Notes under the pieces: model-generated | Databases searched by the model: none | What the model was told of the DNA's origin: nothing | Seen by the model: only the letters and a program-made list of their open reading frames with translations | Made by a program: the position numbers and the translations under genes | DNA from: a virus | DNA length: 33,482 nt | Strand: one strand, 5' to 3' | IMG/VR virus record: IMGVR_UViG_3300032238_001132 | Location: 1-33,482 of that record | In this document: piece after piece, positions 7,736 through 33,482 of the stretch | Layout: each line of letters starts with the position of its first letter | How positions within the stretch are numbered: position 1 is the stretch's first letter

Positions 7736-7925
7736 TTAAAATCTCCATCAAAAGAGATTTAATTTCACTAATATCCTTTTTCATTTCTTCGATTTCACAT
7801 CTTTCCCGTTTTTTATTATTCATAGTAGACATATATTGATTATATGATTGATTATCACAATTAATTATAGCACCAGAATTTTCATCTCTATATAGACTTG
7901 GATGCCCTTTTACTGGAATCATCAT
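7722..7925 (-). CDS. 67-aa hypothetical protein with C-terminal coiled coil
   Basis: It begins MMIPVKGHPSLYRDENSGAI and continues with INCDNQSYNQYMSTM. The C-terminal half (KKRERCEIEEMKKDISEIKS...) has a heptad-like hydrophobic pattern and is probably a coiled coil. The first ATG overlaps the stop of the 2407-aa gene (ATGA), which supports this start. Small proteins of this shape accompany the giant tail genes in cyanophages. Its function is unknown; a chaperone or minor virion role is possible but not shown. Confidence 0.75.
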   Translation of the reverse strand: MMIPVKGHPSLYRDENSGAIINCDNQSYNQYMSTMNNKKRERCEIEEMKKDISEIKSLLMEILNGSK

Positions 7926-16761: not shown

Positions 16762-19700
16762 TTAAATGGTAAAACTCTTTTTAATTGGACCAATATTTCT
16801 TAGTCCAAACCCTCTTCTTTGAATTGTTGGGAAAGTTGAAAGTCCAGAATTAACTAGATATCCAGATACTGATATTGATATTGGATTTGTCGATCTGGTA
16901 AAATTATAAATTCTACCCCAAGAGAACTTACCAACAGTATTTCCAGTTGTTGCAATTCCAACTACCGAAGAAGAATTTGATATATTGCAAGTTATAATTC
17001 CTACATTAGGATTAAATGCACTAATATAATAGATATTATCCAAAAATATGGTGCTGACACCTAAGGTATTAGAACTATTATCTAAAGTAGTGGTTCCACT
17101 ACCAACAGATGTATTGTAAATGTAAATTGGATATCCAGTTGATAATCCTGCAAATGGCGATAGTGACGGATCTAAAGTAAATTTCAATGCAAGATTTGTG
17201 CCAATTCCAGTAGTTGTTGAAATTGCAACAATATTTCCAAATGATCCACCAATTCCCGCAATATTTTTAATATTTTCATAGGATCCTGATGGCACTGGAG
17301 CAATAACTTTTGGTGGATTTAATGAACTGTATCCAAAACCAGGATTTATTATTGTCACTGCTCCAGTTAACGATCCATTAGAAATAGATGCAGTTGCAGT
17401 TGCAGTAGTAATTCCTGGAGAGGAAAATATAACACTAGGAAAAACATTATATCCATATCCTGGACTTACAATTGTGACTGAAGTTACAGCACCATTAGTT
17501 ATATTTGCTGTTCCTGTTGCAGTAGATCCAATTCCAACTCCAATGATTTTGGGATTTTCAAATCTGACAGTTGGTGGTGAATTATATTGATATCCACCAT
17601 AAGTAATAATAACGTCTGTAACAATACCAGAAGATCCGGTAATTGCGTATCCAATAGCAGACTTACCTACAGGAGAGGAAATTTTTATATGTGTTGTTGT
17701 TCCAACATACCCACTTCCAACATCATTGATAGTCAGTGATTGAATAGTTCCTGCAGCAGACACAGTTGCTGTAATTGCCGCTGAAACGGGATCTGTAGAT
17801 CCAGAAATTATTATTCCATCAAATTTAATTGGAGAATCATAACCAAATAAATTTACATTATCTACAAAAATTTGATTATCTGAAGTAGTTATATTTCTTA
17901 TAATTTTTGCTGTTGGATACACTTGAGATTCATTTATATCTCTTGTTTTGTATATAATTTGCCCATCTACAATTTTATCAGTTTTTTGCTTTGTCCAACT
18001 TAAATTAAGTGGTTTATTTGCCTGCAGATCAATCCCTTGTCTAATATAATCATTTGTTTGAATTTTATCAGATGATGAAATATCAACAACGTCTCTTGAA
18101 TCTTGAGTAGTTGTAACTCCCAAATAATTATTATTACTAAAAGATTTTACAGAATCTCCAATTTTAATAGTTTCATTAATATTAACTAATGTACTATCAG
18201 AGTTACTTCCTCTATAAAAGAAAATAGAAACGATATCTTCAAGTTTTGGTGCTTGAGTAAATGTGAATGAAGTTCCACCATTAAATTGATATGCTACACC
18301 AGGTTGTTGAAGAATTCCATTTATAAAAATAATTAAAAGATTATTAAAATCAATTAGTTGAGAATCATTATTGGAGGAATTCTTTTCAAAACTTAAGAGT
18401 TGTGAATTATAATAAAGTGGAAATCTTGTCCTAACTCCATCTTGATATAGTTTTACACTATCAATATAATCCATTTCTCCAAATTGCCATGCTGAGAATG
18501 AATCTGTGAAAGTCTCTAAAACTGTTAATTGAAACTCTGACACTGGATATGAAAGTCCATAATCAGTAACTAAACCAACTGCTTTAATTACATCACCACG
18601 TTTAAATCCATATCCACTTCTAACAATTTTAAAACCAGTAACTTCAAATAAAGTTGAACCTATTCCTGTCGTTGAACTAGCACCAACTTCAATATTGAGT
18701 AATAATCCAACACCAGTTTCAGTTGTTGATCCAACACTTAATCTAGAAACTCCAGTAACAGGTAAATTACTATAACTCGGTGGTGATATGCTAATAGTTG
18801 GATTAGTGTATCCAGAACCACCATTTACAATGCTAAAAGATAATGTTCCTCCAGCACCAACAGATGCTGTAATTGTTGCTCCTGTCCCCGTATGACCGCT
18901 TTCAGTTACTGCGATTGAAACTGGACTTCTATAACCAGATCCCCAGTTTCCTTTTGTCCCAATACCAATAGAAACAATAGATCCACCAGAAATAATAGCA
19001 GTAACAGAAGCACCTACCAAAGATGCATATCCAAGACCAGGTGTAGATCCTAATGATACAATCATCCCACCTCTAGGAAGTTGGTTTAAGTTGACATCAG
19101 AATATGATATAAAAATAGAACCATTGGATGAAGTAATTCCAGAGAATACTATACTAGTAATTCCAACTGAAGAATTTTCTACAATTTTGAAATTATTATT
19201 TGTATTATTTTCTGTAGTTGGTGTTTGGAATATACCATTTATGAATACTATTCCATTTCCACCAATACTACCCAAACCAACTGTATTAATTCCATTTGTA
19301 GTTAAAGTATAAGTTTGCCCTATTCCAGTAAATTTTTCCGAAATATTATCAAATATTTGATTACTAGTATAGTCATTTTTAAGAAAAACTCTCCCATTAA
19401 AATAAGATTTTGGTTCTGGTAAATTATAGGTATCTGTATATGTCTGAGTTCCAGCATTTCCTCTTGGTGGATCAGTAAAATAAATTTTATTTCTAACAAT
19501 ATTAAATGATCCTCTGTATAAAGATGCTAAACTAGAATTTGAATGGGAAGTTGCAGAAGTGCCCACAAATCCCCTTTGAACAGAAACTAGTGGAAAAGTT
19601 CCTGTAAAGGAAATTGGACCACTAACTGTAGTCCCAAGTCCAACATTAATAACTTTCATATATTCATTATCAATTTTCAACAAATCACCAAGAGAAATTG

Positions 19701-22700
19701 AAGAAATGCCACTCAATCCAATAATAGTTGTTGCGGAACCTATTGCACCTCCATTGTTTACAGTATAAGTTAATAGTGAATATGCTATTGGAGATTGAAC
19801 AATATTATCAATTGAAATGATACATTTATTATTTTTATTAACCATTTCAAACTCATGAGTTTCTCCAATACCAACTGAAGTAAATGTTACCCCAATTGCA
19901 GGATTTGATAGTGCATATTCTTTTCTAGTTGCTACCTTAAATGAATCTTTATCAATTTTAATTGCATAAAGTGTAGGTGGTAAAATATTAGTTACTACTC
20001 CTACATTATTAAGAGTAGATCCAATGCCCATAGAAGTTGAAGAGTTTGAACTATAAATTAATTCTTCTCCTGTGCTAAAGAGGTGATTTGAAATATTAAA
20101 TTTACCTGTATAAAGATCAATAACTGTTGAATCTGATGGATTGAAAGTTTTTGAGAAAATTGGAATTCCTTGGTCATTTAAATTAAATGAATATTGATTC
20201 TCAGAAAAAGATGAACTTATATCATCAATTTGAATAACCCTATTTGTACGACATTCGATATAATCTGAGAGTTTTTTGTTTTTAAATTTTAAATATTTTG
20301 AACTATTTCCGTCACTGTCTACATCTAAAACCAAATCAAAATTATTAATAGTATCAACTCTATTTTCATCAACTAATTGATAAAGAATATCAGCATATTG
20401 TAATGCTGTTATTCCAATTCCAACATTTCTAACAATTTGAGTATCTGCAAAATTTTTAAGACCACTTGTATGAAGTAAACTATTGACTGGACTTACAATA
20501 TTTTCCCAAGTTTGATTACTCTTTACAGAATATGAAAGATTTTGATAATAATCATTGTCCGAAATAACTTGCATATCATCATCTAGTTTTCCAATATTAT
20601 CGGACCATCCAAGATTTTTAATATTTGAATAATTAATTTGGAATTGACCTTTTGATTCTTTAATATCACTAATAGTTGCAATTGTTCCCGATTGATTTCC
20701 TCTAATAGTTTTTCCTACTTCTAAATTATAAGATCCTAAAATCTTGACATAATTTTTATTACTTTCTACAATTTTTAATTGAACATCAACAAACACAGAT
20801 TGTTCATTTACTTGCAAATATTCGCCAATAATAAAATTTGAAAATCCTTGCACAACATTAAATTTTGGATAATTTTTGTAATTTATTATATTTCCATAAA
20901 TTCCAATTATGGTATCGGCAATTCCAGGATTTGAACCAGTATCGAATTCAATTTGTCTTGGTAGTTGTGTGCCAGCATTATAATACTCTTTAATTGTAAA
21001 GAAATTATATCCATAATCACTAGAATTAAATCCATCTCCATCTGAACCATATTTTTTAATTCCTTCAACAAAAATTGTATCATATTTTTCAAATGGTTCA
21101 ACACTAAAACCAGTTTGTGGAGTTGCTAAGGTGCAAGTAACAATTCCAGAATTTGATGACTGAATTGTTTGAATTCCAACTCCATTAGTATTATTAATTG
21201 CAAATATTTTTGCTGTAGATTGTGGCAATCCACTTGGAGGTTGTTTTATTATTACGGATGAGATTGAAGTCCCATCCACATTTGCAATCAATGACCCAGA
21301 ATCTATTTCTTCACCAGTATCAGAATTGACAATTATTAAATCTGGAGATACTGTATAGTTCTTACCTCCATCAACAATAGAAATTCTAGCAATTGTATTT
21401 GAATTTTCTATTACTAAGGATTTGGAAATTTCTGCTTCTGGTTTTAGAGTTTTGTCGGAAGAATATTCAAAACCTTCATTGAAAATTTTGGTCTGATTTA
21501 CTCTTCCAATTTTATTAGATTTTGGAATAATATATGCACCATTTCCATATTGAGACTGAACACTATCAAAAACTGGTAACTTTTTAAAATTAGATCCTGA
21601 TGAAATTGTTCTAACTTTAAAAACTCCACCTAAAGCAGTTGGAGACTTTGTTGTATAACTCAGATTCTCACATTCAAAGTTGTAATATGTATATTTTTCA
21701 GGTTTTATTTGAAGAGATATGTTAAATGTAGATTGACCAACTCCCGAAATATTATAAGAACCGTTATAATAACTATCAATAAAATTAATCTGTGAGTAGT
21801 TATTAATTTCTGTATCAGCGGATATTGTTTGTCCAGATTTTTCTAGTGTATAGAATAATGGGAAAGAAATTTGATTTGAATTTATAATAGCAGATGCATT
21901 TGCTGATACTCCAGGAATTCCATTTTTAATTACTGAAAATGTATTCGCTGTTCCTACAGAAATAAATTCATCTTCAAAATTTTCATCATAAAATACTTTG
22001 AAATTATATCCATTTAAAGAACTATTAGATAAATCAAAAACAATATTATTCCCCTTTATTGGATATAATGGTGGATTTATAGGTGATAATATTTCATTGG
22101 AACCAGAAGAAGAAGTTATATTAACAAATAATGGATTAACAGATATTGAATCATTCTTCGTTTCACATAATTTAATCGTATTTTCATCCACAACATAGAC
22201 GTAATAAAATCCTGTAGATAATCCAGCAGATACAGTTGTTGCTGTATAAATTACTTTTTGTCCAGTATTAAAATTATGATTTAATATTGTTATCTCACCT
22301 TTACTAGTATTAACTGCAGATGAGGAAAATTTTACTGGATTAATGATTACTTTATTTCTAACCGAATCATAAGAAACATTAATTGCGGTTGATGTTCCAA
22401 TTCCAACTGAAAGATTTGGAACTACTGAAAGGTCAATTTGATCTCCATATTTTAAATTATGGCTAGTTGATATTGATAGTGTTGATACAATCTTCTTTAT
22501 ATTTCCCCTTACTTTATTATAATCTGATTGGAAGAAATACTGGTAATTATTATCACCATTTGTTATAAAATATAGTCCATTTGTTGTTGTAGTTAATCCA
22601 ACTTCAGTGACTATTCCAATATAATCATCAGATTTTTTAATGACATAAACTGTTTGTTGGTTTCCAGTAAATGGAATACTGAATGCTGCTGAACTTGAAG

Positions 22701-25700
22701 TATTTGCTACAGAAATTGCTGATGTAGATCCAGGTTTATTTAAAATTACTCTCTGATTTGTTTTAAATGGGTGGTTTGGTAGATAAATTGATTGTGTTTG
22801 GACATATGCAGTTCTAGTTGTTATTCCGATAGTATTATTGACCGTAATTCCAGTTCCACTTACTGTACCTAAACCAATAGAATTAATTGGATTAAAGTAA
22901 ACTAAATCATCTACCGTTGAATCAAAGTAATCTAAAGATTTTTGTAATGTAAAACTATTTGGTGAAAAATAAACAACACTTGTAGATGTATGAATTCCTC
23001 CATTAGTATTTCTTGATGCCCTAATTACATTATCATATTTAAAAATATTAAGAACAGAGAAACTTTCCCCATCTATTGTAAATGTGTTTCCTATTGAAAC
23101 TGAATCTGGTATATTTGAAATATAAATGTCAGTTACAATACCTGTGGATGAATATGATGGAATATTTCTGGATAAAGATGTTGTATATGAAGTTACACCA
23201 ATTTGATAGAATCCATTTAGTGAACTAAAGGATGTCGAAAATCCAGAAATAGTAACATAATCTAAGTTTTCTAAACTATGTTGTGGATTTATAGTTGCTT
23301 TAATTTCTTGACCATTTTTCCAAGTGAACGTAACATTATCATACGATACTGCATTTGTTTGTAAATTTGTAATTTGTTTGCCATATACGCTAGATACCTT
23401 TACATATAGTCCTTCACCACCAGTGCTAGTCTCATCAAATGTAACTAAATCTCCAACTTGATAGTTCTTTCCAGAATTTATAATATCGAATGAATCTATA
23501 GAACCTTTAGTCACAGATTCTACCACTGCTGTTTGACTAGTCAATTCATTAGATTCTATTATAAAATCATTTCCCCCATATTGATCGTTAACTTTATATG
23601 GGAATGTATTCCGAATTAAATTTGAATTATTAAAATCAAATGATTGATTTAATTTTTTATTTTCACTAATAAATTTTGACCTATATCTGTTTCCTATAAA
23701 ATAAGGAAAACTTCCAATTATATTTGCATTTGCATCTGTAACTGTAGTTGAAAAGTATGCATAAACCCCATTTGGAAATTCTGGAGTTAAGCAATATCTA
23801 CCATTACATTCATCTAAATCACCAGAGTTTGTAAATTTATAATCATCTATAAAAAATCCAGAGACAAATCCAGATGGCCTATTAAAGACATTTGATTGAT
23901 TTAAAGAATATCCCGAAACTAACTTTTTAATTCCGGAGTTTATATTTTGTGGATCTTTATATCCATAGGATCCATAAATTGGATTTCCATCATATGCCCA
24001 TCCAATAATTGGTGAATGTTTTGAACCATCATCTTTAAAAATATTTTGGATAAATCCAGAATATCCAGAAACACTATACTCCAAATTATTATATGAAGAT
24101 TTTATTATTTCATTCGTAACTAAACTTGAATCATTTATGTCATCATAAAGAATGTTATTATTGACAGTAAGAGATCTAATTTGAACATCAAAAATTGCAT
24201 CTTTTCCTGATGGAACGACAACAATAGATGTATTATCTTGTGAGTATCCAGATCCAGAATTTAATACAATAACATTCGAAATTCTATTATTAACTATAAT
24301 TGGTTTAATTATCGCACCAGTTCCATCCCCGACTACTTTTAAATCTGGAGTTGAGTAATATTCAATTCCACCATATTGGGTCGAAATACTTTTTATTTTA
24401 CCACCAATAATTACTGGAATAAACTGTGCATATAATCCATTTTTTATTTTAATTGTTGGATTTTTATTATAGTTTAAAATTGAAGATCCATAGTCTGTTC
24501 CGTTGTTGTAGACATATGTACCTACAATTTTTCCCTTAACTACTGGAGTTGCATTGATTGTTCCCCTATACTGAGTACTTCCTAATCCAACTGCAGTATA
24601 CTCAACCTTCATTGATATATCAGGATAGTTAAAAATGTGATATCCAGTTCCAGTCGATCCTAAACTGATAGGTTTTCTTCTTTGATAGTTACTTACTATT
24701 GTTCCACCAATACCAGCATCAGCAATCTTAAATTTATTTTCATCTTCTTTGAGAATATAATATTGTTTTAGTGTAGATATTCCCGAAATTGGATAAGATA
24801 AAGTTGTAGAAATTCCAGTATTAGAATATGAAACTAATTCTCCATCATTAAATCCATGATTAGAATAATACAAATAACTATTGCTAGTAGAAACACCTGA
24901 CGGCAAGATTCTAAGTTTTCTATTTGTATATTCACTTCCACCATTAATTACTTTAATTTGAGTTAATGTATTTTTAGTTTCTGTCAAAAACTTTTGAATT
25001 CCAGAATTACCAACAGTTGTAAATCCTACAGTATTAATTCCAGATTTATAATCTGAAAATGATGGATACAATTGAATTGTAGTATCACTAATATATTTTG
25101 TATAGTATTTTGAACCATTTGTTAGGGTAATATTGGCATCTGCAACTGTTCCTATACCCAATGGTGGATTAGCAGCAGGATTATATATGATTGGTTGACC
25201 ATCTACCAAATTGTGATTTGATAAGAATGTTATAGTTTCACTTGTGGTATCAACTCCACCGCCAGATGAAATTTCTCTTGCATCAAATTCCATTTCTCTG
25301 TTTATTCTTTCAATTACTGGTTCAAATGTTGCACCTTTCCCATTACCTCCAGTAAGATTGGCAGAAATTATAACATCAATATTAAAATCTAAAGGATCTA
25401 CATAAATTTTTTCTACAAATCCACTTACAATTGGTTGAACTAGAGCATTGCCATCCGAAAATTCTAAAAGTGGGGGATTGACAACATCATAATCACTCCC
25501 ACCATTTAATACTTTAACATCTGATACTGGACCATAATAAATTTTATCATTGGATTTATAATTTAGAATTTCAACGCCATTAATTAACATTCCAATATAT
25601 CCAGGATCTGTTAAATCCGATTCCCTATCTTTAATATTATGATTAAATGGGAATTTCCTTAATAGTTTTTGTGGTGAAATTTTACCATCTTTTTGAGAAC

Positions 25701-27693
25701 TGAGAGTAAAATTGTGTGTTCCTGAAGTTAAATTTCCAAATTGAACACAATTATTTGTACCAACTACAGATCTAGAATTGTATAATTTAATTTGTAAATT
25801 ATTTGTTCCATTTACTACTTCAACATAATATATTCCTTCATTTAAACCTGAAATTGGAGATTGTGATGGTTTATAATATACCTCACTTCCATCTAAAAAT
25901 GAAACTGAAGTAGAAAATTTTATTATTGAATAAAATCCTGTTTCATCATCTCTACCATTTACTTCAGTGGCATTATATGAAAAAATTCCTTTTTTAATGT
26001 TATAAGAGGGTAATGAATTTGATGCAACATACATGTATTCATCATTTTCATTATATACATTCTGAATATCTGAAGTTATTGAATTAAATTCGAGAGGAAC
26101 TACTGATGAACTAGATTTTTTAATTCTTCTTCTAATGTCATAATTGAAACTTTTATTGAGAGAAAATGATTCAATAGTTGTAATTTGTTTTCCCGAAATT
26201 TGAGATATACTTAATCCAGATCCCACTACTGTTTGAGAATCCCTATTTAATATATCAATGTAATCTCCAACTTTTAAACTTGACTTATCAATATTGCTTT
26301 TTAAAATTAATTGTGAAATAGATCCTGGAGAGAAAGTATCAATTTCATATCTCGAACTAGTATTATAAATCCAACTATTGGCAAAAATTTCCTTATAAGA
26401 AGCATCAGTATTTTTAATATTTTCACCAATACTTTTTACTAATATTGATTCTCCAACATCAATCGTAGAGTTTTCATAAATTGGTTTATATTTAGATAAA
26501 ACACCAGTCAGTCTCAGTTCAACTTTTTTAGAAGTATCTCCACCCTCATACCCATAATAAATTTCATCCGATCTAATTACAGAAGAAATAGGTATAGATG
26601 ATGTAATTCCAGAACATCCAAAAAATTGATTAATACTTTTATTCGTATAAGATATAGTATTAATACCTGAGTAAATTTTTCCTGTTGGCGGAAATCCTAT
26701 CGTAGAATCTACTGTAATTATAGAACCACCAATACTTACAGATTCTATATTTTTTGTACTACCTGTTATATCAAATGTTCCAGTTACTGTTGGAAATGCA
26801 TTGTCATATCCAACAAAAAGAAAAAGTTTATAATATGTTTTTCCACCTCTTCTTATAATTTCAACTTCAGAAACTGAAGCTGTGCTATTTTCATCAGTAT
26901 TTTTTATAATTGTTTGACCAGATAGTTTTAAAGGATCTCCAGAAATAGCTTCCGCAACAACAACTTCTCTTTTAGTATAAGTTGCTGAAGATGGTTTAAA
27001 AAGAAATTGCTCCAAATCTACAACTTTTGGAGTTTCTCCAAACAAAACGTTAAAAAGAATTCTAAATGATTCATCAGTACCTTTTGACTCATAAAGATTG
27101 CGAGATGATTTAATAAAATTTCCCACATTAAGATTGGGAGTAAAATTTAAATTCTCTAATTCTGGTGTTAAAGTATACTTTGTTTTTTTATAAAACTCCT
27201 GTAAAAATAACGCACTTAAATTTTGAACATGTGATAATGCATTATGAGATGCTGCTGTTGAGGTTGAAAATACTAATTCTTGACTATTTAAATCTGCATG
27301 GTAACTGGTAATACCAGAGAATCCGCGAATACAACCAGTAAAAGTATTTGATGTAATTCCCGTATAAGTTATAATTTCATCGTCAATTTTTAATAGTCCA
27401 TATTTTGGAGGAAATCCTTTGGTCGAAGTGACTGTAACAATACCAGAAGAAGATGAAACATTCGTCGATAATCCAGTAAATCCAATTATGACTTCAGGAA
27501 TTAAATTATCAACTTTTTTATATTGATCGAGATTCTCTACAATATCAATAGTTGCGCCTTGATATTCTTGAGAAATATAATATTGCTTTAAAAAATCCGA
27601 AAACTTCGGACTTTCATCTAATATGAATTCTGGAATTTGATTGTTAATTATGTCCTGAATTTTTACCCTAGATTCAAAACCAGTTTGTATCAT
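16762..27693 (-). CDS. 7: Giant gp7-like baseplate wedge protein with YHYH domain
   Basis: The protein has 3643 residues. Residues 1-230 resemble the C-terminal core of T4 gp7: FSDFLKQYYISQEYQG, then FLQEFYKKTKYTL and FIKSSRNLYESKGTDESFRI with LFNVLFGETPKV, against T4 SRSYDFYSTKGIEASYKFLF. The rest is recurring beta modules: at least 12 GxGY elements, several IDDEIIxYTG...RG elements, and YYVxVVDxxTIKL elements. Residues about 1227-1336 look like a YHYH domain. T4 gp7 is 1032 residues, so this is a greatly enlarged version. It sits exactly between gp6 and gp8 as gene 7 does in T4. gp7 is the wedge scaffold and fibre-network anchor; the extensions probably project from the baseplate. The assignment to gp7 comes from remembered sequence. 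Confidence 0.85.
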   Translation of the reverse strand: MIQTGFESRVKIQDIINNQIPEFILDESPKFSDFLKQYYISQEYQGATIDIVENLDQYKKVDNLIPEVIIGFTGLSTNVSSSSGIVTVTSTKGFPPKYGLLKIDDEIITYTGITSNTFTGCIRGFSGITSYHADLNSQELVFSTSTAASHNALSHVQNLSALFLQEFYKKTKYTLTPELENLNFTPNLNVGNFIKSSRNLYESKGTDESFRILFNVLFGETPKVVDLEQFLFKPSSATYTKREVVVAEAISGDPLKLSGQTIIKNTDENSTASVSEVEIIRRGGKTYYKLFLFVGYDNAFPTVTGTFDITGSTKNIESVSIGGSIITVDSTIGFPPTGKIYSGINTISYTNKSINQFFGCSGITSSIPISSVIRSDEIYYGYEGGDTSKKVELRLTGVLSKYKPIYENSTIDVGESILVKSIGENIKNTDASYKEIFANSWIYNTSSRYEIDTFSPGSISQLILKSNIDKSSLKVGDYIDILNRDSQTVVGSGLSISQISGKQITTIESFSLNKSFNYDIRRRIKKSSSSVVPLEFNSITSDIQNVYNENDEYMYVASNSLPSYNIKKGIFSYNATEVNGRDDETGFYSIIKFSTSVSFLDGSEVYYKPSQSPISGLNEGIYYVEVVNGTNNLQIKLYNSRSVVGTNNCVQFGNLTSGTHNFTLSSQKDGKISPQKLLRKFPFNHNIKDRESDLTDPGYIGMLINGVEILNYKSNDKIYYGPVSDVKVLNGGSDYDVVNPPLLEFSDGNALVQPIVSGFVEKIYVDPLDFNIDVIISANLTGGNGKGATFEPVIERINREMEFDAREISSGGGVDTTSETITFLSNHNLVDGQPIIYNPAANPPLGIGTVADANITLTNGSKYYTKYISDTTIQLYPSFSDYKSGINTVGFTTVGNSGIQKFLTETKNTLTQIKVINGGSEYTNRKLRILPSGVSTSNSYLYYSNHGFNDGELVSYSNTGISTTLSYPISGISTLKQYYILKEDENKFKIADAGIGGTIVSNYQRRKPISLGSTGTGYHIFNYPDISMKVEYTAVGLGSTQYRGTINATPVVKGKIVGTYVYNNGTDYGSSILNYNKNPTIKIKNGLYAQFIPVIIGGKIKSISTQYGGIEYYSTPDLKVVGDGTGAIIKPIIVNNRISNVIVLNSGSGYSQDNTSIVVVPSGKDAIFDVQIRSLTVNNNILYDDINDSSLVTNEIIKSSYNNLEYSVSGYSGFIQNIFKDDGSKHSPIIGWAYDGNPIYGSYGYKDPQNINSGIKKLVSGYSLNQSNVFNRPSGFVSGFFIDDYKFTNSGDLDECNGRYCLTPEFPNGVYAYFSTTVTDANANIIGSFPYFIGNRYRSKFISENKKLNQSFDFNNSNLIRNTFPYKVNDQYGGNDFIIESNELTSQTAVVESVTKGSIDSFDIINSGKNYQVGDLVTFDETSTGGEGLYVKVSSVYGKQITNLQTNAVSYDNVTFTWKNGQEIKATINPQHSLENLDYVTISGFSTSFSSLNGFYQIGVTSYTTSLSRNIPSYSSTGIVTDIYISNIPDSVSIGNTFTIDGESFSVLNIFKYDNVIRASRNTNGGIHTSTSVVYFSPNSFTLQKSLDYFDSTVDDLVYFNPINSIGLGTVSGTGITVNNTIGITTRTAYVQTQSIYLPNHPFKTNQRVILNKPGSTSAISVANTSSSAAFSIPFTGNQQTVYVIKKSDDYIGIVTEVGLTTTTNGLYFITNGDNNYQYFFQSDYNKVRGNIKKIVSTLSISTSHNLKYGDQIDLSVVPNLSVGIGTSTAINVSYDSVRNKVIINPVKFSSSAVNTSKGEITILNHNFNTGQKVIYTATTVSAGLSTGFYYVYVVDENTIKLCETKNDSISVNPLFVNITSSSGSNEILSPINPPLYPIKGNNIVFDLSNSSLNGYNFKVFYDENFEDEFISVGTANTFSVIKNGIPGVSANASAIINSNQISFPLFYTLEKSGQTISADTEINNYSQINFIDSYYNGSYNISGVGQSTFNISLQIKPEKYTYYNFECENLSYTTKSPTALGGVFKVRTISSGSNFKKLPVFDSVQSQYGNGAYIIPKSNKIGRVNQTKIFNEGFEYSSDKTLKPEAEISKSLVIENSNTIARISIVDGGKNYTVSPDLIIVNSDTGEEIDSGSLIANVDGTSISSVIIKQPPSGLPQSTAKIFAINNTNGVGIQTIQSSNSGIVTCTLATPQTGFSVEPFEKYDTIFVEGIKKYGSDGDGFNSSDYGYNFFTIKEYYNAGTQLPRQIEFDTGSNPGIADTIIGIYGNIINYKNYPKFNVVQGFSNFIIGEYLQVNEQSVFVDVQLKIVESNKNYVKILGSYNLEVGKTIRGNQSGTIATISDIKESKGQFQINYSNIKNLGWSDNIGKLDDDMQVISDNDYYQNLSYSVKSNQTWENIVSPVNSLLHTSGLKNFADTQIVRNVGIGITALQYADILYQLVDENRVDTINNFDLVLDVDSDGNSSKYLKFKNKKLSDYIECRTNRVIQIDDISSSFSENQYSFNLNDQGIPIFSKTFNPSDSTVIDLYTGKFNISNHLFSTGEELIYSSNSSTSMGIGSTLNNVGVVTNILPPTLYAIKIDKDSFKVATRKEYALSNPAIGVTFTSVGIGETHEFEMVNKNNKCIISIDNIVQSPIAYSLLTYTVNNGGAIGSATTIIGLSGISSISLGDLLKIDNEYMKVINVGLGTTVSGPISFTGTFPLVSVQRGFVGTSATSHSNSSLASLYRGSFNIVRNKIYFTDPPRGNAGTQTYTDTYNLPEPKSYFNGRVFLKNDYTSNQIFDNISEKFTGIGQTYTLTTNGINTVGLGSIGGNGIVFINGIFQTPTTENNTNNNFKIVENSSVGITSIVFSGITSSNGSIFISYSDVNLNQLPRGGMIVSLGSTPGLGYASLVGASVTAIISGGSIVSIGIGTKGNWGSGYRSPVSIAVTESGHTGTGATITASVGAGGTLSFSIVNGGSGYTNPTISISPPSYSNLPVTGVSRLSVGSTTETGVGLLLNIEVGASSTTGIGSTLFEVTGFKIVRSGYGFKRGDVIKAVGLVTDYGLSYPVSEFQLTVLETFTDSFSAWQFGEMDYIDSVKLYQDGVRTRFPLYYNSQLLSFEKNSSNNDSQLIDFNNLLIIFINGILQQPGVAYQFNGGTSFTFTQAPKLEDIVSIFFYRGSNSDSTLVNINETIKIGDSVKSFSNNNYLGVTTTQDSRDVVDISSSDKIQTNDYIRQGIDLQANKPLNLSWTKQKTDKIVDGQIIYKTRDINESQVYPTAKIIRNITTSDNQIFVDNVNLFGYDSPIKFDGIIISGSTDPVSAAITATVSAAGTIQSLTINDVGSGYVGTTTHIKISSPVGKSAIGYAITGSSGIVTDVIITYGGYQYNSPPTVRFENPKIIGVGIGSTATGTANITNGAVTSVTIVSPGYGYNVFPSVIFSSPGITTATATASISNGSLTGAVTIINPGFGYSSLNPPKVIAPVPSGSYENIKNIAGIGGSFGNIVAISTTTGIGTNLALKFTLDPSLSPFAGLSTGYPIYIYNTSVGSGTTTLDNSSNTLGVSTIFLDNIYYISAFNPNVGIITCNISNSSSVVGIATTGNTVGKFSWGRIYNFTRSTNPISISVSGYLVNSGLSTFPTIQRRGFGLRNIGPIKKSFTI
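17280..17720 (-). repeat. Tandem GxGY repeats near C-terminus of gp7-like protein
   Basis: Four consecutive ~35-50-aa units are readable in translation: GSGYVGTTTHIKISSP, GGYQYNSPPTVRFENP, GYGYNVFPSVIFSSPG and GFGYSSLNPPKVIAPVP. Each is followed by a Thr/Ala-rich strand. They match the gp14 repeats in pattern (Gly-x-Gly-Tyr, then Pro-x-hydrophobic strands). Confidence 0.75.
23680..24015 (-). other. YHYH-type domain within gp7-like protein
   Basis: The translation contains IIGWAYDGNPIYGSYGY, later FIDDYKFTNSGDLDECNGRY, then CLTPEFPNGVYAYF and FPYFIGNRYRSKF. The combination AYDGNPIYG...LDECNGR...TPEFPNGxYxYF...PY is the signature of YHYH-domain proteins found in marine bacteria. The final YHYH element reads YAYF here. 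Its function in virions is unknown; surface binding is a guess. Confidence 0.7.
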
Positions 27694-29642: not shown

Positions 29643-30044
29643 TTATCTTGTTGCCTCTAATATAAATGAAAATTGCTGTGCTGGAATTTGTTGCCCAATA
29701 ATATTAAATGAAACTGTCACTTCAAAGGTATTTAAATCTGGTTGAGGGTCTACTTGAACGATTGTATTATTTACTCTTGGTTCATAATTTAAAATCACTT
29801 CATAAATTTGATCTTGAATTACAGAAGCAGTTCCATAGTCTATAAAATCAAATAAACTTTTTCTTACATTTGATCCTAAAGTAGAATTAAAAAATCTTTC
29901 AGTAGGAATTGTTTCAACTAAATTGCGAATCGCACGAATAATAGATCTTTCATTTGTGAGAATCGGCAAATCTTTTGTCACAGGATGTGGATCAAAAGAT
30001 AAACTAATATCTTTAAAAGATCTAGATATCCTAGTAACTGCCAT
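29643..30044 (-). CDS. 25: Baseplate wedge protein gp25
   Basis: The protein has 133 residues (T4 gp25 has 132). It has the gp25/GpW family features: DISLSFDPHPVTKDLPILTN, AIRNLVETIPTERFF and the conserved EPR core motif in ILNYEPRVNN. gp25 joins gp6 and the sheath at the inner baseplate and acts as the first sheath-like layer. It opens the baseplate transcription unit behind a late promoter 22 bases upstream of its ATG. Confidence 0.95.
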   Translation of the reverse strand: MAVTRISRSFKDISLSFDPHPVTKDLPILTNERSIIRAIRNLVETIPTERFFNSTLGSNVRKSLFDFIDYGTASVIQDQIYEVILNYEPRVNNTIVQVDPQPDLNTFEVTVSFNIIGQQIPAQQFSFILEATR

Positions 30045-30066
30045 TTTTAAATAAGTTTTATTTACT

Positions 30067-30073
30067 TATTTAT
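30067..30073 (-). promoter_or_regulatory. T4-type late promoter (ATAAATA) before gp25
   Basis: The minus strand reads TCATAAATAAG. The element ends 22 bases before the gp25 ATG and just after the stop codon of the 80-aa gene. It is positioned to drive the long 25-6-7 unit. Confidence 0.7.
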
Positions 30074-30075
30074 GA

Positions 30076-30318
30076 TTATTTCCAAGAAGATCCATAAGTT
30101 GGTTCTGTTCCATATTCCCAATCATCATAATCTTCATCATTTCTAATTTTTTCATGCAAATCAGTCTGCTTTTTAAGATTATGTTTGGGTGCTATATCGT
30201 GCATAATCTCTTGAATTACACGTTGCGGAGGTGTTGAATCATAATCAGTGATTAGTTTTGCTGTCCCCCATGTTTCATACATGTAATTTTTATCTCTATC
30301 GACTGGTAAATTGGACAT
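30076..30318 (-). CDS. 80-aa conserved hypothetical protein
   Basis: The 80-aa acidic protein begins MSNLPVDRDKNYMYETWGTA, has a central helix (QRVIQEIMHDIAPKH) and ends in an Asp/Tyr/Trp-rich tail (NDEDYDDWEYGTEPTYGSSW). It has a good Shine-Dalgarno AGGAG 6 bases before the ATG, one of the clearest in the window. I recognise no domain. It lies between speD and gp25; the tail composition would suit a protein-binding peptide, but this is speculation. Confidence 0.75.
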   Translation of the reverse strand: MSNLPVDRDKNYMYETWGTAKLITDYDSTPPQRVIQEIMHDIAPKHNLKKQTDLHEKIRNDEDYDDWEYGTEPTYGSSWK

Positions 30319-30326
30319 TTTAGCTC

Positions 30327-30347
30327 CTGTTTTAATGAATAAAACAG
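30327..30347 (-). other. Perfect 8-bp hairpin in leader of 80-aa gene
   Basis: CTGTTTTA and TAAAACAG are exact reverse complements separated by five bases. On the minus strand the stem ends at the AG of the AGGAG ribosome site of the 80-aa gene, so it could limit or present that site. It has no T-run on the minus side, so it is a poor terminator for these genes. Confidence 0.5.
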
Positions 30348-30358
30348 AACTTTTATAA

Positions 30359-30376
30359 AGGAGGTTGCTATCTCCT
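30359..30376 (-). terminator. Possible weak terminator after speD
   Basis: On the minus strand AGGAG and CTCCT form a 5-bp stem with an 8-base loop, followed by TTATAAAAG. It is 10 bases after the speD stop. The stem is short, so the call is tentative. Confidence 0.3.
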
Positions 30377-30385
30377 CACTTCTAT

Positions 30386-30712
30386 TTAACGATCTACTTC
30401 ACGAATAGAATATGAATCCGAATTGAGGTATTTTAAAACTTCAATAGCGATTAATTTTGGATTTCCTTCTCCACAAGTATACACATCAACTGCTAAACAT
30501 CCATTTTCTGGCCAAGTATGACAAGAAACATGACTTTCTGAGAGTGCAATCACTACCGTGCATCCTTGAGGATAAAAGTAGTGTGAGAAAGTGTTTAAAA
30601 TTGTCATTTTGGCACGTTCAATGCCCTTAATCATGACGTTTTGGAGAGACTCTACGTCATTAATAAGATCATGTTGAACATTATACACCTCTAAAAGAAG
30701 GTGTTTACCCAT
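30386..30712 (-). CDS. speD: S-adenosylmethionine decarboxylase SpeD (auxiliary metabolic gene)
   Basis: The protein has 108 residues from the ATG. It has the prokaryotic AdoMetDC core ALSESHVSCHTWPENGCLAV. Ser60 (after Glu59) would be the self-cleavage site that becomes the pyruvoyl cofactor; His65 and Cys80 occupy the catalytic positions. The spacing (60, 65, 80) equals that of the Thermotoga enzyme (63, 68, 83). The enzyme decarboxylates AdoMet to supply aminopropyl groups for spermidine, and speD is a known auxiliary gene of T4-like cyanophages. A TTG 15 bases upstream (30727) would add MKKFS and sits 18 bases after the late promoter; neither start has a clear ribosome site. Expression with late genes suggests polyamines are needed at packaging time. 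Confidence 0.93.
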   Translation of the reverse strand: MGKHLLLEVYNVQHDLINDVESLQNVMIKGIERAKMTILNTFSHYFYPQGCTVVIALSESHVSCHTWPENGCLAVDVYTCGEGNPKLIAIEVLKYLNSDSYSIREVDR

Positions 30713-30745
30713 TGAAAATTTTTTCAATTCAGAATGTAAAAAATT

Positions 30746-30752
30746 TATTTAT
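30746..30752 (-). promoter_or_regulatory. T4-type late promoter (ATAAATA) before speD
   Basis: The minus strand reads GAATAAATAAA directly after the hairpin terminator at 30765-30793. It is placed 33 bases before the speD ATG (18 before the alternative TTG). Confidence 0.65.
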
Positions 30753-30764
30753 TCAATATAAAAG

Positions 30765-30793
30765 TCGGGTTTAGGAACGTTCCTAATACCCGA
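30765..30793 (-). terminator. Strong hairpin terminator after the 51-aa gene
   Basis: TCGGGT pairs with ACCCGA around an inner palindrome TTAGGAACGTTCCTAA, giving a long stem with one bulged base. On the minus strand it is followed by ACTTTTAT. It is 29 bases after the stop of the 51-aa gene and separates the sigma70-driven module from the late structural block. The other strand also shows T-rich sequence after it, so it may work in both directions. Confidence 0.7.
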
Positions 30794-30821
30794 TTTAAGA
30801 TTTAGATTTACGAATAATACA

Positions 30822-30977
30822 TTATCCTTTACCTTGTCCTCTATACTTTTTACGTGCTCCATTACGAGAAGAAGCAGCATACTTAGTTCCAGATCCATCT
30901 CCTTGACGAGATTTCTTAGGAGGACCGGGAATATAAGAACTATTCTTATTCAGACCACCCTTTACTTTTGCAGCCAT
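30822..30977 (-). CDS. 51-aa basic Gly/Lys/Arg-rich protein
   Basis: This short frame encodes MAAKVKGGLNKNSSYIPGPP, then KKSRQGDGSGTKYAASSRNG and ends ARKKYRGQGKG. It is strongly basic, has no hydrophobic core and is probably disordered; I believe similar short proteins are conserved in T4-like cyanophages. Nucleic-acid binding is a reasonable guess from charge alone. Its ATG lies 16 bases inside the end of the 60-aa gene, so the two are probably translated together. Confidence 0.8.
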   Translation of the reverse strand: MAAKVKGGLNKNSSYIPGPPKKSRQGDGSGTKYAASSRNGARKKYRGQGKG

Positions 30978-31144
30978 ACATTATTCTCCATTAAAATTTC
31001 AGTTTCAAGATCTTCAGGTTTTGGAGAACCTGTCTGATAGAATTCAACTGACAGATCCTCCATTATATTGAAATATTCTTCTTCTGTGAGAGAAGTATGA
31101 ATTCTTTCACCTTTGTGAAAAATATTATAGAGTTCGTTAGACAT
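30962..31144 (-). CDS. 60-aa hypothetical protein
   Basis: It begins MSNELYNIFHKGERIHTSLT and continues with an acidic helix (EEEYFNIMEDLSVEFYQTG) and PKPEDLETEILMENNVWLQK. The ATG shares one base with the TGA of the glycosyltransferase gene (TGATG), the usual re-initiation arrangement; a TTG one codon upstream is less likely. The sequence recalls small conserved cyanophage proteins of unknown function. No domain is recognised. Confidence 0.8.
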   Translation of the reverse strand: MSNELYNIFHKGERIHTSLTEEEYFNIMEDLSVEFYQTGSPKPEDLETEILMENNVWLQK

Positions 31145-31899
31145 CAAATAATCCTTGTTTTTTCGTGACCAACGCGAATGCGAGGATCACACCAAATTTG
31201 AAATCCTGCTTCGATTGCATCTAAACAGAAAGATACGTCCTCTCCACACATGTCTTGAACTTCTCCAGATTCAAAGACTTGCATTTTTGGTGCAAACCAT
31301 GGATATTTCATTTCTGAATGTTCAAAAACTCCATGTTTAATCAGAAGCCATCCAAAACCAGTATAATCTACTGTAAATGGTTTACGACGCTTTGAGATAC
31401 TCTCAACGGTTTCATGATTCATCACACCACCATTGTTACGGAAATCATCTTCCTCCAACCAGTGTGCCACTGAAGTTGTGTGACCATCTTCTGTTGCATA
31501 CCAACCAGCAGCAAGATCTTTATCCATCAGGACTAGTTGCCAAAATTTTTCTGAATTAAAGATAATGTCAGAGTCAATCCAAAGTTGCCAATCATATTGA
31601 AGTTTACCGTCCCAAGGAATTTGATTCGGTCCTCGCAGAACATTCGCACCTAAACACTTGCATCTTGCAAAGTTTACCATTGACGAATAATCCTGAGAAA
31701 TTTGAATGCTTGCTCCTGCCTGCACTAAGTCAAAACAAAGTTGAACAAAGTTTTTCAGATAAGCATAAGAAACTCCTCTTCCAGGAAGACAAAAGACGAT
31801 GGATTTTCCTCTCACCATCTCTTTTGCCAAATTATAATCCCACTCTTCAGTTTGTGTTGGAGAAGGTGTTTTTGTTTTTACTGTAAATCCTTTAGCCAT
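31144..31899 (-). CDS. GT-A type glycosyltransferase
   Basis: The protein has 251 residues. It starts with a Rossmann-like strand (KSIVFCLPGRGVSYAYLKNF), followed by SMVNFARCKCLGANVL and the metal-binding LWIDSDIIF with D109-S110-D111. The acceptor-side GEDVSFCLDAIEAGFQIWCD lies at 219-238, then H245 in VGHEK, a typical second metal ligand. GT-A enzymes transfer sugars from nucleotide donors. In phage the target may be DNA bases, virion protein or host surface glycan; the sequence does not tell which. It is led by a sigma70-like promoter and followed by the coupled 60- and 51-aa genes, so it is probably expressed earlier than the virion genes. Confidence 0.82.
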   Translation of the reverse strand: MAKGFTVKTKTPSPTQTEEWDYNLAKEMVRGKSIVFCLPGRGVSYAYLKNFVQLCFDLVQAGASIQISQDYSSMVNFARCKCLGANVLRGPNQIPWDGKLQYDWQLWIDSDIIFNSEKFWQLVLMDKDLAAGWYATEDGHTTSVAHWLEEDDFRNNGGVMNHETVESISKRRKPFTVDYTGFGWLLIKHGVFEHSEMKYPWFAPKMQVFESGEVQDMCGEDVSFCLDAIEAGFQIWCDPRIRVGHEKTRII

Positions 31900-31922
31900 A
31901 ATAGAATGCGGTTACATCAGGT

Positions 31923-31951
31923 ATCATACACTATTATCTATGTTATGTCAA
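31923..31951 (-). promoter_or_regulatory. Sigma70-type promoter for the glycosyltransferase unit
   Basis: The minus strand has TTGACA (31951-31946), a 17-base spacer and TATGAT (31928-31923). That is a perfect -35, optimal spacing and a -10 with one mismatch to TATAAT. Transcription would start about 15 bases before the ATG at 31899. The -35 overlaps the stop of the 56-aa gene. Confidence 0.75.
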
Positions 31952-32118
31952 TCCACCTCTGTTAGAATGACTTCGCTGCCTTCAATAGAAAACTTAATTT
32001 TTGTGTCTTCATACCATTCAAGATCATTCATAATTTGTTCATGAATATTAATAAAATATTGCCCAGTAATTGGATCGATCTCTATAGGCGCAAAAATTTC
32101 TCCGGAATTTTTTTTCAT
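31948..32118 (-). CDS. 56-aa hypothetical protein
   Basis: This short frame encodes MKKNSGEIFAPIEIDPITGQ, then YFINIHEQIMNDLEWYEDTK and ends IKFSIEGSEVILTEVD. The order of strands, with I.EQIMNDLEWYEDTKIKFSIEG, faintly recalls AbrB-like swapped-hairpin domains (strand, helix, then a Gly turn), which would suggest a small DNA-binding regulator; this is tentative. The start is the only ATG in frame near the front. Upstream sequence is A/T-rich (TATATAAAAG, TTTATATTC) without a clear promoter match. Confidence 0.7.
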   Translation of the reverse strand: MKKNSGEIFAPIEIDPITGQYFINIHEQIMNDLEWYEDTKIKFSIEGSEVILTEVD

Positions 32119-32345
32119 ATAAAAGAATATAAATTTTTATTTTGCTTTTATATAGGGGGGTTTTTGTGTTTTTTTATACTGGCGATTTTTTTATTTTTGA
32201 GTCTTATATAAAGGTCGCTTGGGTAACACTTTGTAGGTTAGGGTAGTATCGGTTTTTTCAATCACCCCCCCCCACCGTAGGGTAACTGCCAAACACGAAC
32301 GAATAGGGGCGCTAAGTGTAACTAACTGCGCCCCACTAACTAACA
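32119..32345. other. Intergenic segment with homopolymer tracts
   Basis: I find no convincing gene here. It contains long single-base runs: nine C at 32265-32273, a run of six G at 32153-32158, several T7 tracts, and two copies of GGGTAAC. The hairpin described separately is at its right end. It marks the change from GC-rich to AT-rich sequence. Confidence 0.6.
32306..32334 (-). terminator. GC-rich hairpin after the 108-aa gene
   Basis: GGGGCGC and GCGCCCC are exact reverse complements with a 15-base loop, placed 11 bases after the stop at 32346. On the minus strand it is followed by TATTCGTTCG, not a real T-run, so it may protect the 3' end rather than terminate. Confidence 0.5.
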
Positions 32346-32672
32346 CTAACCCAGCAACATGGCGCAAGTCATGCTATTGTAACGGTTACAGATAGCATCG
32401 TCAGCATCATAATCGGGTTCAGGTTCGGGTTTGAATGCTATCTCAACAGCAATACAATCGGTTGCCAGGATACCATAATCACGAAAATCATGGCAGCGTG
32501 TGAAATAGGAATCCTCCTCAGATAGGGAAACAAAAAGATACCTATCTCCCAAATCACTGAGGAATTGTTCTACAATTGCTTCCTCTTTATCAGTCAATCC
32601 AGTATAATCATCATTGACAATTGCACACAGAAAATGTGAAGGAATCACGTAAGGTTGCAGGTCGATTTTCAT
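32346..32672 (-). CDS. 108-aa hypothetical protein, possibly DUF6926-like
   Basis: It reads MKIDLQPYVIPSHFLCAIVN, then DDYTGLTDKEEAIVEQFLSD, a strand-rich part (DRYLFVSLSEEDSYFTRCHD), then GILATDCIAVEIAF and an acidic tail (KPEPEPDYDADDAI). The pattern of a short strand, a DY.GLTD.EE helix and a late FTRCHD segment recalls DUF6926, small proteins of unknown function found on phages and plasmids; this is from memory. The leader ATCCTACAATG has no Shine-Dalgarno. It is GC-rich like its two upstream neighbours. Confidence 0.7.
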   Translation of the reverse strand: MKIDLQPYVIPSHFLCAIVNDDYTGLTDKEEAIVEQFLSDLGDRYLFVSLSEEDSYFTRCHDFRDYGILATDCIAVEIAFKPEPEPDYDADDAICNRYNSMTCAMLLG

Positions 32673-32703
32673 TGTAGGATTGCGGTGGGAAAGTGTGAAG
32701 AAT

Positions 32704-32724
32704 GGGGGAGGGATTGCCTCCCCC
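32704..32724 (-). terminator. Perfect GC-rich hairpin after the 82-aa gene
   Basis: GGGGGAGG and CCTCCCCC form an exact 8-bp stem with a 5-base loop, 10 bases after the stop at 32735. On the minus strand it is followed by CATTCTTCACACTTT, which is only moderately T-rich. Confidence 0.55.
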
Positions 32725-32734
32725 TAAGTGTATT

Positions 32735-32983
32735 TCAGTGAAACCAATCGTAAGGCGTTTGAGGTGTTGGATCATACCCATCAATGGCAGCATCAATGGC
32801 GGCAGTTGGTGACAATCCCTGTAGGTAGGATTCTAGCAGGCAATCAAGTGCCCAACCATCATCAGGGACGCCCAACACATCGCCCATAGCGTGATCAAGT
32901 TGATAGGCGTGAGCAGCATCCCACCAAGCGCAGAAAGCAGCAGACTCAAAGCAATTCTCAGTCGTGAAAGCAGTGGCAGGCAT
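32735..32983 (-). CDS. 82-aa hypothetical protein (MPATA-type)
   Basis: It begins MPATAFTTENCFESAAFCAW, continues WDAAHAYQLDHAMGDVLGVP, then DDGWALDCLLESYLQGLSPT and ends in TPQTPYDWFH. It is an acidic, Trp- and Ala-rich helical protein. It shares its first five residues and the DNA around the start (GCCATGCCTGCCAC) with the 60-aa gene upstream. The motif AACCACACC precedes both start codons in place of a Shine-Dalgarno. No known family is recognised. Two overlapping alternative frames here have poorer composition. Confidence 0.65.
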   Translation of the reverse strand: MPATAFTTENCFESAAFCAWWDAAHAYQLDHAMGDVLGVPDDGWALDCLLESYLQGLSPTAAIDAAIDGYDPTPQTPYDWFH

Positions 32984-33005
32984 GGCAGCGGTGTGGTTTG
33001 GGGAA

Positions 33006-33025
33006 GGGGAACCGTGTGGTTCCCC
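33006..33025 (-). terminator. Perfect GC-rich hairpin after the 60-aa gene
   Basis: GGGGAACC and GGTTCCCC form an exact 8-bp stem with a 4-base loop, 16 bases after the stop at 33042 and 22 bases before the next ATG. On the minus strand it is followed by TTCCCCAAACC, so it lacks a proper T-run. Confidence 0.55.
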
Positions 33026-33041
33026 AGAATCTTAGCACGGA

Positions 33042-33224
33042 TCAGGCGCCCATGGCATCCCGCAGCGCCTGATAGGCGTCGGATGCCTGACGGGACCATC
33101 CCGGTTCTTTCGCGGAGGAATCCACAGCACAGCAGAGCGTAGCAATGCGGATCGTATCCCATTGCTGGCGGGTCAGGGTCAGGGTCAGGGGAGCGGTAGC
33201 AGTTTCCAGAGCGGTGGCAGGCAT
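33042..33224 (-). CDS. 60-aa hypothetical protein (MPATA-type)
   Basis: From the ATG at 33224 it reads MPATALETATAPLTLTLTRQ, then QWDTIRIATLCCAVDSSAKE and PGWSRQASDAYQALRDAMGA. The LTLTLT stretch is encoded by three tandem GGGTCA units (plus strand). The same frame is open further upstream, but that extension translates the AT-rich repeats into a hydrophobic peptide and is not credible. The start matches that of the 82-aa gene. The function is unknown; Trp-Asp and Ala-rich helices are predicted. Confidence 0.6.
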   Translation of the reverse strand: MPATALETATAPLTLTLTRQQWDTIRIATLCCAVDSSAKEPGWSRQASDAYQALRDAMGA

Positions 33225-33321
33225 GGCGTCAATGGGTGTGGTTGACCCGTCAATCCTACAGCATCGGAGGGGGATCAGGGGGCACCAAACCTTAAGAGAG
33301 TCTGAAGAGTCTGAGTTAATG
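33225..33321. other. Leader segment between repeats and first GC-rich gene
   Basis: No gene is seen. It contains AACCACACC on the minus strand (33243-33235), a short direct repeat GTCTGA (33300-33313 area) and the base-composition switch from GC-rich to AT-rich. A promoter for the three small genes may lie here or in the repeats, but no consensus is clear. Confidence 0.4.
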
Positions 33322-33418
33322 TAAAGAATTAAACAGTGCTGAATAATAAGAATTAAACAACACAAAGTATAAAGAATTAGACAGGACTGAATGTAAAGAA
33401 TAAACCACACCACTGACA
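33322..33418. repeat. Degenerate ~24-bp tandem repeats (TAAAGAATTAAACA)
   Basis: On the plus strand TAAAGAATTAAACAG begins at 33322, TAAGAATTAAACAA at 33347, TAAAGAATTAGACAG at 33370 and TAAAGAATAAACCAC at 33394, spaced 25, 23 and 24 bases. A further copy starts at 33467 and an inverted one lies at 33441-33450. The array may continue beyond the window. Confidence 0.75.
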
Positions 33419-33438
33419 ATAAATTACATTCAATCCTG
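33382..33438. repeat. Imperfect 15-bp inverted repeat
   Basis: CAGGACTGAATGTAA (33382-33396) is the reverse complement of TTACATTCAATCCTG (33424-33438) with one mismatch, enclosing 27 bases. Confidence 0.7.
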
Positions 33439-33458
33439 AGTAATTCTTTATACTCAGG
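33435..33458. repeat. Perfect 8-bp hairpin with repeat core in its loop
   Basis: CCTGAGTA (33435-33442) and TACTCAGG (33451-33458) are exact reverse complements. The loop ATTCTTTA, with the stem edge, is an inverted copy of the TAAAGAATTA core of the neighbouring array. Confidence 0.7.
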
Positions 33459-33482
33459 GAAAAGTATAAAGAATAAAGAACT

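Follow-up and report, generated by a model that had tools for sequence, protein, structure and literature searches.

This locus raises the question of whether three consecutive small genes, each followed by a GC-rich hairpin, are exchangeable cassettes, and what the hairpins between them might do. The window, by which we mean the whole stretch of 33,482 bp that was analysed, is an IMG/VR virus record. Among named phages it is closest to S-SRM01 and S-SKS1, both T4-like cyanophages, with 75–77% nucleotide identity over parts of 30003–32308. The cassette genes, the hairpins and a structured element are all located on the minus strand, in the order AT-rich element (33454–33366), 60-aa gene, hairpin 1, 82-aa gene, hairpin 2, 108-aa gene, hairpin 3, 56-aa gene and a conserved 251-aa gene (Table 1). 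Promoter-early stem-loops (PeSLs), reportedly described by Arbiol in 2010 and Comeau in 2014 (both cited in PMC4503421), are said to be mobile regulatory cassettes of T4-type phages. Judging from the sequences we consider it quite probable that the three genes are exchangeable cassettes of a hypervariable array ahead of the baseplate/tail genes of a T4-like cyanophage, with PeSL-like punctuation units at the cassette boundaries.

A sequence-only reading of this DNA had described three genes of 60, 82 and 108 aa with three GC-rich hairpins, and all of them were recovered in place and with the same stems. The distance from stop codon to stem, given there as 10–16 nt, agrees with that measured (Table 1), and the MPATA starts of P0001 and P0002 and their AACCACACC leaders are present as described. 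The base composition is indeed far from that of the tail genes, with a GC content of 0.47 in 32501–33000 and about 0.30 in the latter. The tail module of the window contains two very large ORFs, 16762–27693 (3,643 aa) and 7922–15145 (2,407 aa). P0003 matches DUF6926 (PF21977) above the gathering score (30.3 vs 27) and has relatives by tblastn in P60 and S-N03; its predicted structure is of low confidence (pLDDT 65). The predicted structure of P0002 (pLDDT 74) had no PDB match below E 6. No relatives of P0001 were found by a one-pass search; they were recovered by an iterated profile over the fetched loci.

Table 1. Positions in the window of the genes, linker parts and structured element.
Feature	Position	Strand	Description
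AT-rich 24-nt direct repeats	33322..33407	-	AATTCTTTACATT-type; overlap 3' side of element
Structured element	33366..33454	-	two 14-15-bp helices, 2x2 internal loop, ~27-nt apical loop; RNAfold z -8.7; model R1 115.9 bits
Apical-loop core	33402..33417	-	GTCAGTGGTGTGGTTT (15-16 nt); reverse complement of cassette leaders
-10-like TAGGAT of P0001 cassette	33253..33258	-	type I unit; from sequence
P0001 leader	33225..33246	-	GTCAACCACACCCATTGACGCC
Cassette gene P0001	33042..33224	-	60 aa, MPATA start; family core of VTLTxxxWxTIR type
-10-like TAAGAT	33029..33034	-	type II, just upstream of hairpin 1; from sequence, weak and putative
Hairpin 1	33006..33025	-	GGGGAACC-acac-GGTTCCCC, -14.6 kcal/mol; 16 nt past P0001 stop
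P0002 leader	32984..32999	-	AAACCACACCGCTGCC
Cassette gene P0002	32735..32983	-	82 aa, MPATA start; has relatives in many places of the array
Hairpin 2	32704..32724	-	type III unit; GGGGGAGG-caatc-CCTCCCCC, -16.0 kcal/mol; 10 nt past P0002 stop
Type III tail	32689..32703	-	ATTCTTCACACTTTC
Cassette gene P0003	32346..32672	-	108 aa, DUF6926 (PF21977)
Hairpin 3	32306..32334	-	last in array; GGGGCGC-15 nt-GCGCCCC; 11 nt past P0003 stop
56-aa gene	31948..32118	-	conserved array border; phrog_661; syntenic S-SRM01 gene annotated DNA-binding domain protein

Hairpins and leaders of the linkers

The local GC content is high and might by itself yield hairpins by chance, but four perfect stems (at least 7 bp with at least 6 GC) are found in 32250–33300 (1,051 bp) against a mean of 0.075 in composition-matched shuffles, and none of 200 dinucleotide shuffles reached four. 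The stems are moreover conserved and compensated among relatives, and the chance explanation, already refuted, has practically no probability left. No perfect stem of this kind with a loop of at most 12 nt occurs across positions 1–32000 of the window. The fourth stem, of 9 bp (33073–33041), overlaps the stop codon of P0001. The earlier statement that the hairpins have no proper T-run stands for hairpin 1, with two T in the 8 nt after the stem, and less so for hairpins 2 and 3 with four and five; taking a U-tract as at least 4 U in 8 (after PMC13289151), hairpins 2 and 3 have one and hairpin 1 does not. In Synechococcus elongatus canonical intrinsic termination, with hairpin and U-tract, fits only 22% of the transcription units (PMC13289151), and weak U-tracts thus neither prove nor exclude termination.

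The hairpins are present in relatives with compensatory changes in the stems, and gene-plus-hairpin arrays, which the sequence-only reading had thought worth seeking in other cyanophages, were found in IMG/VR contigs and in the isolate S-SRM01. Relatives found by protein keep the same frame of small genes (richer in GC than the tail genes), hairpins, the DUF6926 gene, a hairpin, the 56-aa gene and the 251-aa gene, and differ in the intervening cassettes. Hairpin 3 has counterparts in L010, L016, L018 and S-SRM01. The linker before the DUF6926 gene has the stem GGGGGAGG in the window and AGGGGTGA, GGGGCGG and AGGGAGGC in relatives, and these stems of four lineages, the window included, are all perfectly paired. 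This type III linker (AGTTACACTTA-hairpin-ATTCTTTACACTTTC-ATG) was found in 31 units, chosen for possessing a stem, with 20 distinct stems and many unrelated genes downstream, and the number of different, perfectly paired stems indicates that the structure is conserved and not the sequence. Without such selection, a stem of at least 6 bp abuts 33 of 61 loose tail matches, compared to 2.4% in shuffles. Different genes are preceded by identical hairpins within a single contig (2 of 14 pairs), and separate contigs have hairpins in common as well. The tails are T-rich (TTCTTT), and many of them, such as TTTCACCTTT and TTTCCACTTT, have no -10-like hexamer. L087 and L102 were rejected as relatives, being an unrelated phage in which the tail pattern matched by chance. 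Several relatives contain repeated palindromes of the TCTCGACTAGATT/AATCTAGTCGAGA type where their small genes are located (L018 3735–3820; the array of G001).

Among 177 distinct leaders of relatives, taken from element-bearing contigs, a -10-like hexamer ends 6–7 nt ahead of the anchor GTCAACC/GTTCAC in 148. The hexamers include TAGGAT, TATACT, TAGACT, CATACT and TAGAAT, and positions 2/6 are A/T in 165 of the 177 leaders. The anchor is preceded by an A in 81%, and the start codon, in those cases that were listed, is mostly located 16–24 nt downstream of the anchor. P0001 has a type I unit, with TAGGAT, which is one of the two commonest hexamers at that spacing, followed by 6 nt, GTCAACCACACC and ATG. 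P0002 is of type II, with hairpin 1 located between TAAGAT and the AACCACACC leader, and P0003 follows a type III linker and has no convincing promoter of its own. A stem of at least 7 bp with at least 5 GC is located upstream of 41 of 176 type I leaders against 3.1 in shuffles (maximum 7), and the majority of type I leaders lack a strong perfect hairpin just ahead of them. The motif AACCACACC occurs three times in the window, the third time on the opposite strand, against 0.13 expected. Starts of the form M[T/P/I]AT are common to 24 ORFs belonging to several unrelated families.

Exchange of cassettes and the putative working of the linkers

That the genes are exchangeable had been suggested before, and it is borne out by near-identical phages that differ by whole cassettes with the joints within the linker, and by the same families at different places of the array. 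Breakpoints were read in a few phage pairs. The flanks of L043/L037 and L046/L083 are 94–99% identical, and L043/L037 have three extra genes between two copies of a promoter-leader-start unit (CCCATACTG..TCAGTTCACCACACCACTCCGATGAACTTCTCCGCTCT), of which L046 has one fused copy. Further along, two cassettes of L043 are replaced by one other cassette in L046, with the right joint on the 5' arm of a hairpin. In L026 a P0001-family cassette precedes a P0002-family gene, the same order as in the window, and in L063 this P0001-family cassette is lost, with the CACCACACC leader as the joint. The first codons can belong to the joint, as does MNFSALT in L043/L046, and this is probably why MPATA is shared in the window and why 24 ORFs have M[T/P/I]AT starts. 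In other contigs the P0001 and P0002 families are located on both sides of the element. L010 contains a linker segment of 65 nt in two identical copies, the positions of which, counted from the element, are -2087 and -1279. This segment starts with a canonical terminator T-run (CTCCCTTTTTTTATACCTAACCCC...AATAGGTTCTACC) and is found at other array positions in L018 (-1562) and L082 (+986). L020 and L070 are near-identical except for a 68-nt deletion that starts in a GGGG run, and what is deleted is the sequence ahead of a cassette leader (about +60 to +126 from the element). It is well supported by these comparisons that the cassettes are exchangeable and joined by conserved hairpin linkers.

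A PeSL-like working of the linkers is likely. The GC-rich hairpin would end or weaken the upstream transcript, in many units a -10 promoter element should follow, as suggested by the -10-like hexamers, and then a short leader (GTCAACCACACC or GTTCACACC) that lacks a Shine-Dalgarno sequence, the ATG and, in some units, first codons that are shared. Homologous recombination between linkers would swap, insert or delete whole genes and leave expression intact, since the same linker is present on unrelated genes. The -10-like hexamer at a fixed spacing in many linkers is what gives them their likeness to the terminator-promoter modules of the T4 PeSLs. Stabilisation of the messages at their 3' ends, as proposed by the sequence-only reading, is possible though less likely: the hairpins would then mainly be RNA stabilisers or processing stops, at an upstream 3' end or in a downstream 5' leader, and the array would be read through and cut. 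The weak U-tracts, above all that of hairpin 1, speak for such a role, as do the position of hairpin 1 and its relatives (type II units) within the apparent leader of the following gene and the lack of an obvious promoter for P0003. In type I units, however, the hexamer lies at a constant spacing between hairpin and leader, which would be superfluous for a pure stabiliser, and the type III tails are T-rich. A terminator plus promoter reads better than a 3' stabiliser since hairpins 1 and 2 are each located between two genes, the hexamer is often found just past the hairpin, and the type II hairpin seems to be in the leader of the next gene.

The single-copy element and the cassette leaders

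The larger conserved hairpin at 33454–33366 had been passed over in the sequence-only reading. In 32 distinct sequences 96.8% of the pair cells are standard, and slid structures, as a control, pair in just 34–46%. Two-sided changes are found in 40 cells against 9.9 in shuffles (0/500) with a covariation of 0.162 against 0.094 (0/500); kin sequences can beat such shuffles without structure, but the slid controls are in agreement with seven pairs that have independent two-sided changes. In contrast to the covarying stem, the loop does not vary. A search with the stem only, the loop being left free (N15–42), gave 42 contigs, all within the loop-defined set, and a looser stem search gave 57, four of them new and with the loop core GTCAGTGGTGTGGTT unchanged. 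Neither search thus turned up a phage in which the loop core varies, indicating that the loop is not conserved by ascertainment. There is one strong match to the element per genome. No family in Rfam 15 reached its gathering threshold for the element, the weak matches all being below it, and no tRNA was found. Contigs of prokaryote genomes contained no exact match, the whole records of seven named cyanophages no convincing one (S-SKS1 only at E 0.345), and blastn of a 183-base region hit only a 32-nt match in a Salmonella phage. In the window (33443–33474) the element may also have an alternative fold, in which its 5' arm would pair with a ATTCTTTATACT copy further upstream (12 nt, 100%); this is present in only some of the relatives.

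On the cassette strand G.U pairs outnumber A.C mismatches by 40 to 5 (16 to 5 minus the most frequent pair), which points to an RNA of the cassette-strand sense. The single copy per genome and the adjoining AT-rich direct repeats might instead suggest a DNA cruciform or a replication origin with iterons, but this is improbable given that the excess of G.U is as for RNA. The AT-rich repeats differ by one unit between the near-identical L010 (5330–5410) and L012, and L018 has an array of 52-nt units (4306–4441). An origin at the element was rejected from the relative G001 (174,667 bp), where the cumulative GC skew rises throughout with no inflection there.

As its reverse complement the loop has AAACCACACCACTGAC, and in this sense it matches the leaders of P0001 and P0002, two of the window's three cassettes, and many in relatives. 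Outside the element in element-bearing contigs, the cassette strand has 50 copies of AACCACACC against 4 on the other strand, 141 of ACCACACC against 5 and 23 of CACCACTGAC against 0, counts that include related phages and are not independent events. The predicted duplex of loop and leader has an energy of -25.7 kcal/mol for P0001 and -25.4 kcal/mol for P0002, compared to -2.8 to -14.4 for the other starts tested; the lowest energy among 1,658 tiles of the window is -25.4, with a 1% quantile of -17.1. For 218 leaders the mean is -13.8, and -10.9 for 60 shuffled loops, the best of which gave -12.8. Contigs without a detected element have a mean of -11.6, from 25 leaders that are a small and fragmentary control. 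Cofold energies were disregarded since a kissing loop cannot be represented. All four strict type I units of G001 (174,667 bp) are located within 5.6 kb of the element. S-SRM01 has neither a match to the element nor a AGTYMACCACACC leader; this association is suggestive only, because the element-bearing G002 also lacks that exact 13-mer.

One mark of a trans-acting antisense RNA, a conserved loop complementary to the ribosome-binding regions of several targets, is found here, and antisense control of the cassettes by the element is a good though unproven hypothesis. We tentatively suggest, with somewhat less than even confidence, that the element represents a regulatory RNA of phages that forms a class of its own and is new, with one covarying hairpin per genome, whose invariant loop would pair with the shared type I and II leaders and thereby immediately place any acquired cassette under common post-transcriptional control. 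That the match is incidental is a serious possibility, not far short of even: the leaders would be C/A-rich and unstructured for ribosome binding without Shine-Dalgarno sequence, and the element would have another role, for example as the binding site of a protein or as an insulator that separates early from late genes. The leaders are variable, with many matching over just 8–10 nt, and the reversed loop pairs nearly as well on average (-13.5 against -13.8). This control was judged invalid, however, because GGUGUGG is identical when reversed. Against an incidental match, the loop core beats all 60 shuffled loops, the CACTGAC half is also common to leaders as the counts for CACCACTGAC show, the leaders of P0001 and P0002 have energies at the best end of the window tiles, and the loop stays unchanged over a covarying stem. 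The antisense loop, if true, would be a simple way to keep a mobile gene array under one regulator.

Comparison with known systems

The array and the T4 PeSLs both have an intergenic stem-loop between small genes in a hypervariable region, linked to shuffling among related phages. Here the intergenic stem-loops occur densely in a hyperplastic region, and genes are exchanged at the motif between related phages. The promoter beside the T4 stem-loop may have a counterpart in the -10-like hexamer, the spacing of which is fixed in type I units; in type III such a counterpart is not clear. Unlike what is reported for the T4 PeSLs, the stems vary between units, the leader and start codon are part of the joint, and the host is cyanobacterial. 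The density of PeSLs is low in cyanophage S-PM2 (PMC4503421), and the same paper considered such a mechanism improbable in the case of a marine cyanophage and its ORFan region; the natural before/after variants indicate that cyanophages trade small genes at fixed, expression-ready joints. Structured RNAs of cyanophages include wcaG, PhotoRC-II, CFrI and the glutamine riboswitch (PMC9964418), which likewise have a conserved structure, whereas the element has no Rfam match and a loop complementary to the neighbouring cassette leaders. The description paper of S-SRM01 does not mention terminators, hairpins or promoters. In this phage (Serangoonvirus, NC_070963) gp181–gp185 are found in the same place before the 56-aa and 251-aa genes, with four hairpins between or after the small genes, and the array has type III tails and gene families in common with the window. 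Since S-SRM01 is an isolate that carries such an array, termination and promoter activity are directly testable.
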